Of a DNA stretch of 47,535 nucleotides, positions 19,742 through 44,211 are shown one piece after another. Within the stretch, counting starts at the first letter, position 1. Each line of letters starts with the position of its first letter. The DNA is from Kiritimatiellia bacterium (GTDB taxonomy: Bacteria; Verrucomicrobiota; Kiritimatiellia; JAQICX01): the NCBI GenBank assembly GCA_027858345.1, contig JAQICX010000010.1:1-47535 (forward strand). The letters run 5' to 3'. Below the pieces are notes generated by a model, which saw nothing but the letters and a program-made list of their open reading frames with translations, had not been told where the DNA came from and made no database searches. The position numbers and the translations under genes were made by a program.

Positions 19742-22700
19742 ATGAAAGAAAAAGAGAATAAGTTAGTATTTATATGTGCTTCAATTGTTGGATTGTTGGC
19801 ATTATTGGTTTATATTATTACATTAAGTAGCGGTGTTTTTCCGGGAGAGCCAGCTAGAACGGCTGCAGAGGTTATTGGTGTTGCCCCACGTCTGGGAGCA
19901 GATGCGCCAATTTATCATTTTATAATGAATTTTCTTAATAAGATCAGCGGCGGGAATGTTTTTCTTTTCAACTTTGTAAGTGCAATATTTGGAGCTCTAG
20001 GAGTTGGATTGATGTATATTATAATGCACGATTCTATAAAATACCTTGTTAGCTTGGAAAATGATGACCAGAAGAAGATTACAGTGACTTCGCATATTGC
20101 GGGTGCGGTTTCTTCATTAAGTTTGCTGTTTTGTCTATCTTTCTGGGTTTCAGCAAATCGAGTGGGAGTGTTGAGTTTTCATATTTTCTTGTTGCTTGCT
20201 GTTGTAAAGCTTGTTATCTGGTTTGCTGAAACAGGCTCTTTGAAGGCTCTTCTTGTTGTTATGTTCTGCTATGGCATAGGTATTTGTGAATATGCTTCAT
20301 TCATCACATGCTTTCCAGTTGCAGTGATTTTCTTGTTGATCTTTATGTGGAAGCACGGCATGCTTAAGCCAATGATATGTCTGTATGCAGTTTTAGCCTT
20401 GGTGGTTGGTCTTTCTTTCTATCTGATTTCTTCATGGTTCTTCTATAATTCTCCTGGGTATGAAATCAGAGAGTATGGCAGTTTCTGGCGCATACCGTAT
20501 GGTTATATTAATGATCAAATGATTAGTATTCTTAGAGGTTTGCCTAAGGTGGGCTGGTTGTTGATGATTCTTCTAACCATTGTTCCATGGATTGTAATGC
20601 TGTTTGTTGCACGTAGGTCGTTGAATTATGATGAAGACACTACTTTCTTTTTGTTGCATATTGTACTTTTAGTTGTTGCAGTGCTTGGTCTGTTAGATCT
20701 TCAGGGGTCACCATGGTATATTTTCGGGGTTCGCAAAATTATGATATTACCATATCTTTTAACCACAAGTCTTTTAGGGTATGTAGCTGCATACTTCTTT
20801 GTCGCCACAATAGGCAGAAATAATATTAGATTTGCAAGAGGCAAGATGAAGTTTGTTTCTGAGCATGGAGCTAAGATTATGCTTCTGCCAATTTTTGCTT
20901 GTATAGTTTATTTACCTATCAAAAATGCAGAGATTGCAAATGCAAAAACTTCAAAATATATAAATAGTTTTGCCAAAGATGTTGTGACCAGCATGGATGG
21001 AAGACCGTGGTTATTGTCTAATGGTTTGCTTGATTATAACTTTATGATTGCTGCTAAGCAGGAAGGTGTTGATTTCACATGCTTAGATTTGTCTAAGGGA
21101 AGCACGACTTTATATCTAAATTTCATCAGTAAGAAGTTTGATAATATATCGTTGCAGAATGTTGCTAAAATTGGTCTTCAGCCTTTACTGAAAACTTGGT
21201 TTGATTTGATGGAGGCTGACATAACAAAACAGCTGGCGATTTTATCTGTTCCTGACTTCTGGCTTGCTCAGGGTTATGTGTATGTACCAAACAAGACATT
21301 GTTTTTGGGGGCTCAGGATATTGAATTCATTGACTCTAAAAGACTATTTGAAGTAAATGAAGATTTTTGGGCAACACTAGATGAACTGAATGATAAAGAA
21401 TTCAATGAAAAGAATCTGGCATATATGTATATCAATTATATGCAAAGACATTTGAGTTTGATTGCAAACAATCTTGGGGTTTTATTGGAAGACTTAAAGC
21501 TGAATGACGAGGCAATCAAAGCATATGAAGATGCTATTGATATGAATGAAAATAATATAAGTGCTAAACTAAATCTAATATATATGGGCAAACAGGGAGT
21601 TTATAAGGGCGATGTTGATGTGCTTGAAGAAGAAATCGAAAATTTATCAGATAGCTTAATTAATTCAATTTCTTTGATGGGGGTTTCATACTATAGTGGA
21701 TATGTACGTGAGCCAATGTTTTTTGCTAGAATGGGCTGGGGCTGGGCACTGTCTGGTCAGCCCAAGCTTGCGATTTTTGGTTTGACAAGGGCTATGGATA
21801 TGGTTGATGAATCTCAACAGGCATATATTAAAGGGACCTTGGCGTCTGTTTATCTTAATTCAAATGACATTAGCAAAAGTGCTGAACTGTTTTTAGAAAT
21901 TTTGGAAGAGAATCCTACGAATTTACAAGCATTGGTTGGCTTAGCTAAGATTGAGCGTCTGAAAGAAAATTATGAAGAATCTAAAGGGTATCTTGATAAG
22001 GCGGCAGCAGCTGGTTTAGAACCCCAATATTATGAGTTGGAATTAATTCTTTTAGAAGTTCTTCAAGGTCATATTGAGCCGTCGAGAAAACGAGTTGAAA
22101 AGCTTCTTGAACAGTATCCTGATATGCATGGAGCTCGTGTTCTTTTGTCGAATATGATGATTGGTGATTTGGATAGCAAAGGTGAATTGGCTGATAATCT
22201 AAGGGAGTTGAATTCTGTTAAAGGTGGTAGAGCAATTGCAGATATTATTAAAGGTAATAAAGCATTGCAGGAAAAGGACTATGCACGAGCTAAGTTTTTC
22301 TTCCAGAAAGCTCTGGCCTCCAGAAATCAGGATGTTACTCTGCTTGAGACCCTACTTAGATTGGATTTTCTTTTAAGAGAAAAAGATGATGCAAGAAAAC
22401 ATGTCGTACAGCTTTTAAAGATTGATCCTAACAACTATTTTGGCAACTATATTTATGGAACAATTCAGGATGATGAGGGAGAAAATGATTTTGCAGAAGA
22501 TTCATATCGCAAGTCAATTGCTGTGAAACCGACACCTGATGCATTGAACTCACTTGCATATTTGCTTGTTTCAAAAGGTCAATATGTTGAAGCTGAAGAA
22601 TTGGCAAAACAGGCCTTGGAGTTTGAGCCGAACAATGTTTTGTATTGCGATACATATGGAATAGCTTTGTATTATCTTGATAGGTCGAAGGAGGCATTGC

Positions 22701-42404: not shown

Positions 42405-42736
42405 AAGTAGGAGATGGGAAGTGGGAAGATGGATCTTTTAAAATTTTCTAATATGGACAGCAGTACCCATTATAAACACCACTGTAATTCTCCGTTGGGC
42501 TTGCCCCATCGGTTATAAGAGATTGCATAACTGAGGCTGTTATTCTCCGGTGGGCTTGTCCCAAGTAGGAGATGGGAAGTGGGAAGATGGATATCTTGAC
42601 CTAAATCTTTTAATATGGACAGCAGTACCCATTATAACCGCCACTGTAATTCTCCGGTGGGCTTGCCTCATCGGGTATAAGAGAGTGCATAACTGATGCT
42701 GTTATTCTCCGGTGGGCTTGCCCCATCGGGTATAAG
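42405..42736 (+). repeat. Two-copy tandem repeat of 158 and about 174 bp
   Basis: Copy 1 (42405-42562) and copy 2 (42563-42736) both run from AAGTAGGAGATGGGAAGTGG through GGACAGCAGTACCCATTATA to TTATTCTCCGGTGGGCTTG. Each copy also contains two internal subunits beginning ATTCTCCG and including TGGGCTTGCCCCATCGG. There are no CRISPR-like spacers and no coding capacity. Confidence 0.85.
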
Positions 42737-42960
42737 ATTTATTGTTTGCTATCGTGGGTGGATATGCAGGCTTGTTCCCCGGTCTGTCATGTAAGGCGTA
42801 CCGCTTCTTGCATAGTAGCAGAACGACCGTGTCCTGCATAGTTTGCAAAACGACGCTGGAAGCGAAAAGAGTGAAGCTTTATATCTGATTTACGGCTTGA
42901 CAAGACAGTAGTGAGCTAGTAAAAAGAAATACAAAGAACGTAAAAAATTTTGAAATATAT
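42737..42960. repeat. Repeat-derived spacer
   Basis: No gene. It includes GTGTCCTGCATAGTTTGC and GACGCTGGAAGCGAA words related to other intergenic repeats (for example 26880-26900). It ends at the left target duplication AAATATAT (42953-42960). Confidence 0.45.
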
Positions 42961-43282
42961 GGCTCTGTCACGGTTTCCGTGGGTAAGGTATTAAATTACT
43001 CATCTTGGCTACGGATGAACACGGATAATTAAAATGTTCGACTACGTTGTAGTCGTCGTGTTATTATCAACATTATCCCCGCATTTCATACGGGGCTAAT
43101 AATATTAGACCACTTCGTGGTCATTAGCAACTGCGAAGCTGTTGAACTTTAATAGCCCCGTATGCAATACGGGGTTAGTTATAATAAAACAATACGACCC
43201 AGCTACTAACTCAGCGAAATAACCGCTAGTTAATAGCTGGGGCGAACAAAAAGGCATGACCCACGGAAACCGTGACAGAGCC
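42961..43282 (+). mobile_element. Family-1 MITE-like element with perfect 24-bp ends and 8-bp duplication
   Basis: A 322-bp element. The 24-bp ends (42961-42984 and 43259-43282, beginning GGCTCTGTCACGG) are perfect inverted repeats. Exact 8-mers AAATATAT flank it (42953-42960 and 43283-43290). Inside are hairpins CCCCGTAT/ATACGGGG (43156-43174), ACCAC/GTGGT, and the CCCAGCTA...TAGCTGGG inverted repeat (43198-43242) also found at 2457 and 4311. There is no coding capacity. The right end is 29 nt before the HAD gene ATG. The junction creates a TATAAT at 43288-43293. Confidence 0.9.
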
Positions 43283-43311
43283 AAATATATAATGTAAAAA
43301 AGGAAAAAATA

Positions 43312-44211
43312 ATGGCGACAAAGGATACGTTCACTAAAGAAGATTTAATTGATTTTAAACCAAAATTCTCAACATTCGTCGGGATAGACTCGGATGGTTG
43401 TGTATTTGACACAATGGAAATCAAACAAAAGCAATGCTTTCATGGGCTAATTGTTTCTCACTGGAATCTTGAACCAATTGAAAAATATGTGCGAGAATCT
43501 GCAGAATTTGTGAATCTATATTCAGCTTTTCGTGGTCAGAACCGTTTTATTGCACTTATTAAATCTTTTGATTTGATTCGTGACCGCAAAGAGGTTGTTG
43601 AATCAGGTGTTGAAGTTCCAATGCTTTCAAGAACTCGTGAGTATATAAACTCAGGATTGCCTTTAGGTAATGCAACTCTTGCAGATGAAGTTGAGAGAAC
43701 CAATGATCCGGAACTAAAGTCTTTATTGCAATGGAGTTATGATGTAAACGACAGGGTTGAAGAGATTGTTCAAGGTGTTGAACCATTCCCATGGGCTCTA
43801 AAAAGTTTGATTAAGATGCAGGATTCGTCTGATGACCTGGTTGTCTCACAGACACCTGAAGAGGCACTTGTACGCGAATGGAAACTTGCAGATATTTTTC
43901 ACTATGTTGAAATTATTGCCGGTCAGGAACTTGGCACTAAAACAGAGCACCTTCATATGGCAACAGAAGGCAAGTATGATGCAGGTGCCGGAAAAATTCT
44001 TATGATTGGTGATGCTCCTGGTGACATGAAGGCTGCAAAAAGTAATAATGCTCTATTCTTTCCTGTTAATCCCGGTCAGGAAGATGCATCATGGAAAGTC
44101 TTCTATGAAGAGGCATATGATAAATTTCTTGCGGGTGAGTATGCAGGTGAATATGAAGATGCTCTAATTGCTGATTTTGAAAAACTCCTTCCGGATACAC
44201 CAAATTGGTGA
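43312..44211 (+). CDS. HAD-superfamily hydrolase
   Basis: 299 residues. Motif I is DSDGCVFDT with Asp26 and Asp28; motif II is VSQTP; a Lys in GQELGTKTEHL probably serves as motif III; motif IV is GDAPGD with Asp234 and Asp238. A large helical cap is inserted between motifs I and II (about residues 45-180). It is probably a phosphatase or phosphoglycolate-like hydrolase with unknown substrate. AAGGA lies 8 nt before the ATG. A family-1 element ends 29 nt upstream, so transcription must start in or at the edge of that element or come from further upstream. Confidence 0.85.
   Translation: MATKDTFTKEDLIDFKPKFSTFVGIDSDGCVFDTMEIKQKQCFHGLIVSHWNLEPIEKYVRESAEFVNLYSAFRGQNRFIALIKSFDLIRDRKEVVESGVEVPMLSRTREYINSGLPLGNATLADEVERTNDPELKSLLQWSYDVNDRVEEIVQGVEPFPWALKSLIKMQDSSDDLVVSQTPEEALVREWKLADIFHYVEIIAGQELGTKTEHLHMATEGKYDAGAGKILMIGDAPGDMKAAKSNNALFFPVNPGQEDASWKVFYEEAYDKFLAGEYAGEYEDALIADFEKLLPDTPNW

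Follow-up and report, generated by a model that had tools for sequence, protein, structure and literature searches.

The window analysed here, a 47,535-nucleotide stretch of DNA from a Kiritimatiellia bacterium, carries a 322-bp element that is very likely a non-autonomous ISL3-type MITE, holding a REP-dimer-like core between interchangeable ends; its copies, ends and duplications are directly observed, and the transposase that mobilizes it we infer. As we picture it, an ISL3-family DDE transposase supplied in trans would bind the 24-bp ends and insert the unit of 322 bp at an AT-rich position between genes, giving rise to an 8-bp target duplication. The interior of the unit is made up of palindromes in a nested arrangement. 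The central 98 nt would constitute a tail-to-tail GTAG-tagged REP dimer whose spacer is structured. ISL3-type ends, themselves interchangeable, would carry this dimer, compensatory changes would preserve its self-complementarity, and the core may have reached its different ends either by recombination through shared cores or by insertion by a Y1 transposase.

Read directly from the window sequence, the element occupies positions 42961-43282 and is flanked on each side by AAATATAT, the 8-bp target duplication that a preliminary description of this DNA had claimed (Table 1). The same description had presented it as a 322-bp non-coding element with perfect 24-bp inverted ends, and both statements were borne out: the open reading frame listing contains no gene inside the element, and upon direct comparison the ends (GGCTCTGTCACGGTTTCCGTGGGT) proved perfectly complementary (24/24). 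Within the window, the leading 19 bases of the end were found at these two sites only, against a chance expectation of 0.00, and were absent from shuffled sequences, and the folding energy of the element was 11.5 SD below that of shuffles. The insertion site is AT-rich and intergenic. The next gene starts with an ATG at 43312, 29 nt past the last base of the element and 21 nt past the duplication, as had been described, while the HAD identity given to this gene stands only as a weak match (21.7 bits against HAD_2, under the cut-off of 23.8). Upstream of the element, positions 42648-42737 hold two direct copies of ATTCTCCGGTGGGCTTGCCYCATCGGGTATAAG.

Table 1. Parts of the window element in window coordinates, and related elements elsewhere in the genome with their lengths and target duplications (matching positions out of eight).
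Feature	Location	Strand	Description
Left target-site duplication	42953-42960	none	AAATATAT
Left terminal inverted repeat	42961-42984	+	ISL3-type (GG-TCT...GTTT...GTGGG)
Left arm	42985-43035	+	carries a dispersed CACGGATGAACACGGATAA-like motif
Hairpin H1	43039-43055	+	CGACTAC-GTT-GTAGTCG; lies at the start of the shared core (181 nt, from 43036)
Palindrome H2	43077-43095	-	19 nt; first partner of the REP-like tail-to-tail dimer; tag inward; covaries
Junction stem	43096-43155	+	CTAATAATATT / AACTTTAATAG, around H3 and H4
Hairpin H3	43107-43123		within the junction stem; covaries
Hairpin H4	43128-43144		within the junction stem; covaries
Palindrome H5	43156-43174	+	CCCCGTAT-GCA-ATACGGGG; second dimer partner; ATAG before it (GTAG in most other copies)
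Hairpin H6	43195-43244	+	CGACCC...GGGGCG; loop palindrome AGCTACTAAC...GTTAATAGCT at 43201-43238
Right terminal inverted repeat	43259-43282	-	perfect complement of the left
Right target-site duplication	43283-43290	none	AAATATAT
Complete copy	C141		331 bp; duplication TTAATTGT, 8/8
Complete copy	C192		288 bp; duplication 7/8
Complete copy	C7		419 bp; duplication 7/8
Complete copy	C64		331 bp; duplication 6/8
Element with second end type	C184		duplication AAAGGTAC, 8/8
Element with second end type	C16		duplication 7/8
Element with third end type (GGATCTTTCGAGTTTTCTGTGGGT)	C18 (stretch L079, 704-996)		duplication ATTAAGTA, 8/8

The element belongs to a family dispersed through this draft genome of 4 Mb (256 contigs, 90.6% complete), from separate stretches of which the copies were read. 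It gave 69 BLAST matches genome-wide, and the search of the genome for the 24-bp end that had been proposed in the preliminary description returned complete copies with their own 8-bp duplications and, by pattern search, 22 ends with at most three mismatches (reversed control, 0). Homology stops at the GG...CC ends: in five complete copies identity was 89% in the 24-bp end compared with 41% in the outer 30 bp, demonstrating that the ends are true borders, and homology extending past them, which had been named beforehand as an observation that would refute the interpretation, was looked for in these five copies and found absent. In addition, AGAAAAAC flanks a left end on contigs C139 and C214 and a right end on C207 (8/8), in each case where the contig ends, suggesting that the assembly probably broke up one further copy. 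Among the 13 elements possessing both ends, the left and right 8-mers were at least 7/8 alike in seven, where shuffled pairing expects 0.84, and none of 20,000 shuffled pairings reached seven such elements. Multicopy status, homology ending at the terminal repeats and copy-specific duplications are hallmarks of a MITE that this element shows, and the initial interpretation of the element as a MITE with a transposition footprint was correct. Elsewhere in the window, at 2655-2697, a degenerate right end belonging to this same type of MITE (GGCGAACAAAAAGGCATGAACC...GACTGAGCC) stands alone; no left partner was identified for it.

The 181-nt hairpin core, whose conservation, covariation and sharing with differently ended elements had gone unnoticed in the preliminary description, is common to elements with two different ISL3-type ends. 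Interior parts of the window element (element positions 75-240) also lie between a second end type, GGTTCTTCGTAAATTATTGTGG, in elements of which two carry the duplications given in Table 1 and several have none. One element, on C232, combines a first-type left end with a second-type right end and has no duplication, a hybrid that fits recombination through the shared core. The element with the third end type encloses a different set of hairpins, its ends and duplication being present and a match to the core absent. The loop palindrome of H6 in the window element is missing from the other copies, and further palindromes were observed in the hairpin loops of several copies, including an insert in the loop of H3 with a unit of ~83 nt and TGTCCTGCG...GAAGCATGG-like units in the loops of H3 or H4. 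These loop-insert motifs are rare near the 11 Y1 transposase matches of the genome, and so a link between them and the Y1 genes was rejected.

At the centre of the core, 98 nt form a cloverleaf in which compensatory change is strong. We aligned 17 of the 18 prepared core sequences (C117 was left out, and inserted loop palindromes were removed beforehand) and found that within this genome the core consists of five hairpins, with 93% of cells paired. In these copies 16 of 37 pairs were changed on both sides, compared with 0-2 when the structure was slid by 1-3 columns, a control that also favours the structure, which was read from the same 17 copies. The shuffle control is inflated by the relatedness of the copies, and so the weight rests on the slid control and on the pair count. 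The junction stem displayed no covariation within this genome, and when the copies here were folded as single strands, a single long hairpin with H2 paired to H5 was favoured over the cloverleaf. A covariance model built on the core, applied to 146 genomes including this one, gave weak matches in two others of the class, and the three core copies found there are free-standing and built of wholly different stems on the same 98-99-nt plan: a 19-nt palindrome, a CTAT junction stem, two hairpins, the junction stem again and a 19-nt palindrome. When these three were combined with 10 copies from this genome, 21 of 36 pairs were changed on both sides (slid controls, 1-7), a count that favours the structure, since it was the model that retrieved the foreign copies before they were added to it; their different stems stay informative.

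Such strong compensatory change, together with the position of the element 29 nt before a start codon and the report that MITEs influence neighbouring genes as transcribed hairpins (PMC3733652), could indicate that the core is a functional structured RNA, a regulator or an mRNA stabiliser under host selection that the mobile ends only spread. We find this unlikely, given that the covariance model scores the two strands almost equally, that no Rfam family came near its gathering score for the core and that further palindromes sit within the loops; the near-equal strand scores speak for a constraint at the DNA level rather than on one-strand RNA, without proving it. A scan for sigma-70 promoters yielded fewer matches than shuffles.

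As for the engine of this ISL3-type MITE, the likeness of its ends points to ISL3 as the best-supported candidate. Of 288 genomes of the class, 90 contain the ISL3 transposase domain, and several intact ISL3 elements among them have ends of the form GGYTCTTC...GTGGG, some with 7/8 or 8/8 duplications; where both ends were found they read, for example, GGCTCTTCAGCAGAATCTGTGGGT and GGTTCTTCGACGGTTCTTGTGGAG, the latter with an 8/8 duplication. In a profile built from 20 ends that belong to intact ISL3 elements of other genomes in this class, the window element scored 15.7 bits, the second end type 20-22 and the third 15.6-17. The window end reads TCTGTC in place of the TCTTC of most ISL3 ends, and most ISL3 ends, from which the profile itself was built, outscore it. 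Of the features of the ISL3 pattern, the window element displays both the GG-TCT ends and the 8-bp duplication. Across all 3,698 GG-starting 24-mers in the window, a score of at least 15.7 bits was reached only by the two ends of the element and by one stretch at 20436, which lies within an apparent coding sequence and was taken as a chance match.

The sole ISL3 transposase seen in the assembly is a fragment of ~180 aa at a contig end, abutting IS21 genes, and the engine is therefore one we infer. The contig in question, C63 (stretch L077, 84-3163), holds the IS21 genes and the ISL3 transposase remnant with an extra helix-turn-helix region. The preliminary description had also proposed looking for an autonomous transposase gene with the same ends: none lies among the ends listed, and no autonomous element with first-type ends was found in the draft, in which such ends occur at several contig breaks. 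A pair of ends 2.35 kb apart on C52 (4060 and 6411) was considered as an autonomous copy; since its flanks are unlike and the enclosed gene bears no signs of a transposase, we read it as two separate degenerate copies. The window-element end gave four matches in a GTDB scan, about the number expected by chance, and one weak match among 56 relatives.

Alternatively, the ends may stem from a different family with 8-bp duplications, be it IS6, IS1595 or one not yet described, with their likeness to ISL3 being convergent, an explanation that agrees with the presence of only an ISL3 transposase fragment in the assembly and that we hold to be quite improbable, as the match to ISL3 ends covers 24 bp, GTGGG included. 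IS6 ends resemble GGCACTGTTGCAAA, and the start of the window element, GGCTCTGT, is also like them; yet no convincing IS6 transposase was found in the genome, the sole match to an IS240/IS6 domain lying in a 514-aa frame, which exceeds the size of IS6 transposases. The genome has two IS1595 transposase genes, yet the IS1595 copies here end in GGGGTATGCACTTG, which scores -9 to -31 in the ISL3-end profile, and IS1595 was rejected as the mobilizer, as far as this genome goes, on account of these other ends in the copies of both genes. Hence, among the three families named in the preliminary description (IS6, ISL3 and IS1595), ISL3 gained support and IS1595 was excluded on the evidence of the copies in this genome. 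One IS1595-family element, with GGGGTATGCACTTG ends, is located on C30 (stretch L116, about 1076-2110), and the second IS1595 gene at the start of C187.

Judged by its sequence, the core of the ISL3-type MITE resembles a tail-to-tail GTAG-REP dimer. Its two 19-nt palindromes are inverted, each following GTAG or ATAG: the H5 tag is GTAG in most copies and ATAG in the window, the H2 tag is mostly ATAG, and both are GTAG in a free-standing unit on C40. GTAG followed by a short palindrome occurs nine times in the window versus 2-4 times for five control tetranucleotides, all of them commoner, indicating that this window is characterized by palindromes with a GTAG tag. Such palindromes of 8 bp (e.g., GTAG-CGTCGGTC-gat-GACCGACG), which are REP-type repeats, are found at 34, 9769, 11605, 19479, 45682, 47367 and 47450. 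The C40 unit was the one further unit retrieved when a second model was run over the Y1 loci; it has GTAG on both sides, lies ~250 nt from an IS200-like Y1 gene that is apparently broken (two partial matches), and belongs to a cluster of GTAG-tagged palindromes on the same plan as the core (stretch L187, 870-1250). Most other Y1 loci have no core-like unit nearby.

That the whole unit is a REP/REPIN-type element moved by Y1 (RAYT or IS200-like), its ISL3-like ends and duplications being incidental, would accommodate the tagged inverted palindromes, their covariation and the 11 Y1 matches, of which one adjoins a cluster built on the same plan, but is highly improbable, as the duplications lie exactly at the GG...CC ends of elements both with the core and without it (that on C18), and 8-bp duplications are not known from Y1 transposases (IS200/IS605). 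Within the preferred reading as an ISL3-type MITE, we consider it possible, if doubtful, that the 98-nt cloverleaf is a mobile unit in its own right, spread through the class by Y1 and captured between several ISL3 MITE ends; it would then be one parasite using two unrelated machines, single-strand Y1 and double-strand DDE, and growing via palindromes taken into its loops.

A comparable MITE of 187 nt, with GGCTCTTCG ends and 8-nt direct repeats, was described in Microcystis aeruginosa PCC 7806 and attributed to ISL3 (PMC11448079). Similar to it, the window element is short, lacks a transposase, has GG-TCT ends and 8-nt repeats, folds into stem-loops and has a putative ISL3 mobilizer; unlike it, the window element measures 322 bp, has a 24-bp end (compared with 9) of other sequence, and combines a REP-like core shared by several end types with the lack of a detected autonomous partner. 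REP dimers inside longer palindromes were reported in A. variabilis and H. neapolitanus (PMC3733652). With GTAG REP dimers and REPINs (PMC3733652, PMC3116915) the core shares inverted palindromes, inner (G/A)TAG tags and a structured spacer with complementary ends, in a window where GTAG palindromes are frequent and a genome with Y1/REP-type genes; here, however, the dimer lies between ISL3-type ends with 8-bp duplications, and its window tag is ATAG. TIME elements of the Tn3 family (PMC4133298) are likewise miniature and non-autonomous, bear transposon ends and form mosaics, but have Tn3 ends and 5-6-bp duplications, in contrast to the ISL3-type ends and 8 bp of the window element.

An ISL3 MITE by itself is of a known and ordinary kind, and it is the shared hairpin core that is the less usual part. 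This genome is useful in that it unites a covarying core between at least two ISL3-type ends, a hybrid element and palindromes inside loops, providing material for testing how parts pass between REP dimers and MITEs, and whether a need at the DNA level (cruciform or single-strand), rather than an RNA function, keeps the hairpins complementary.
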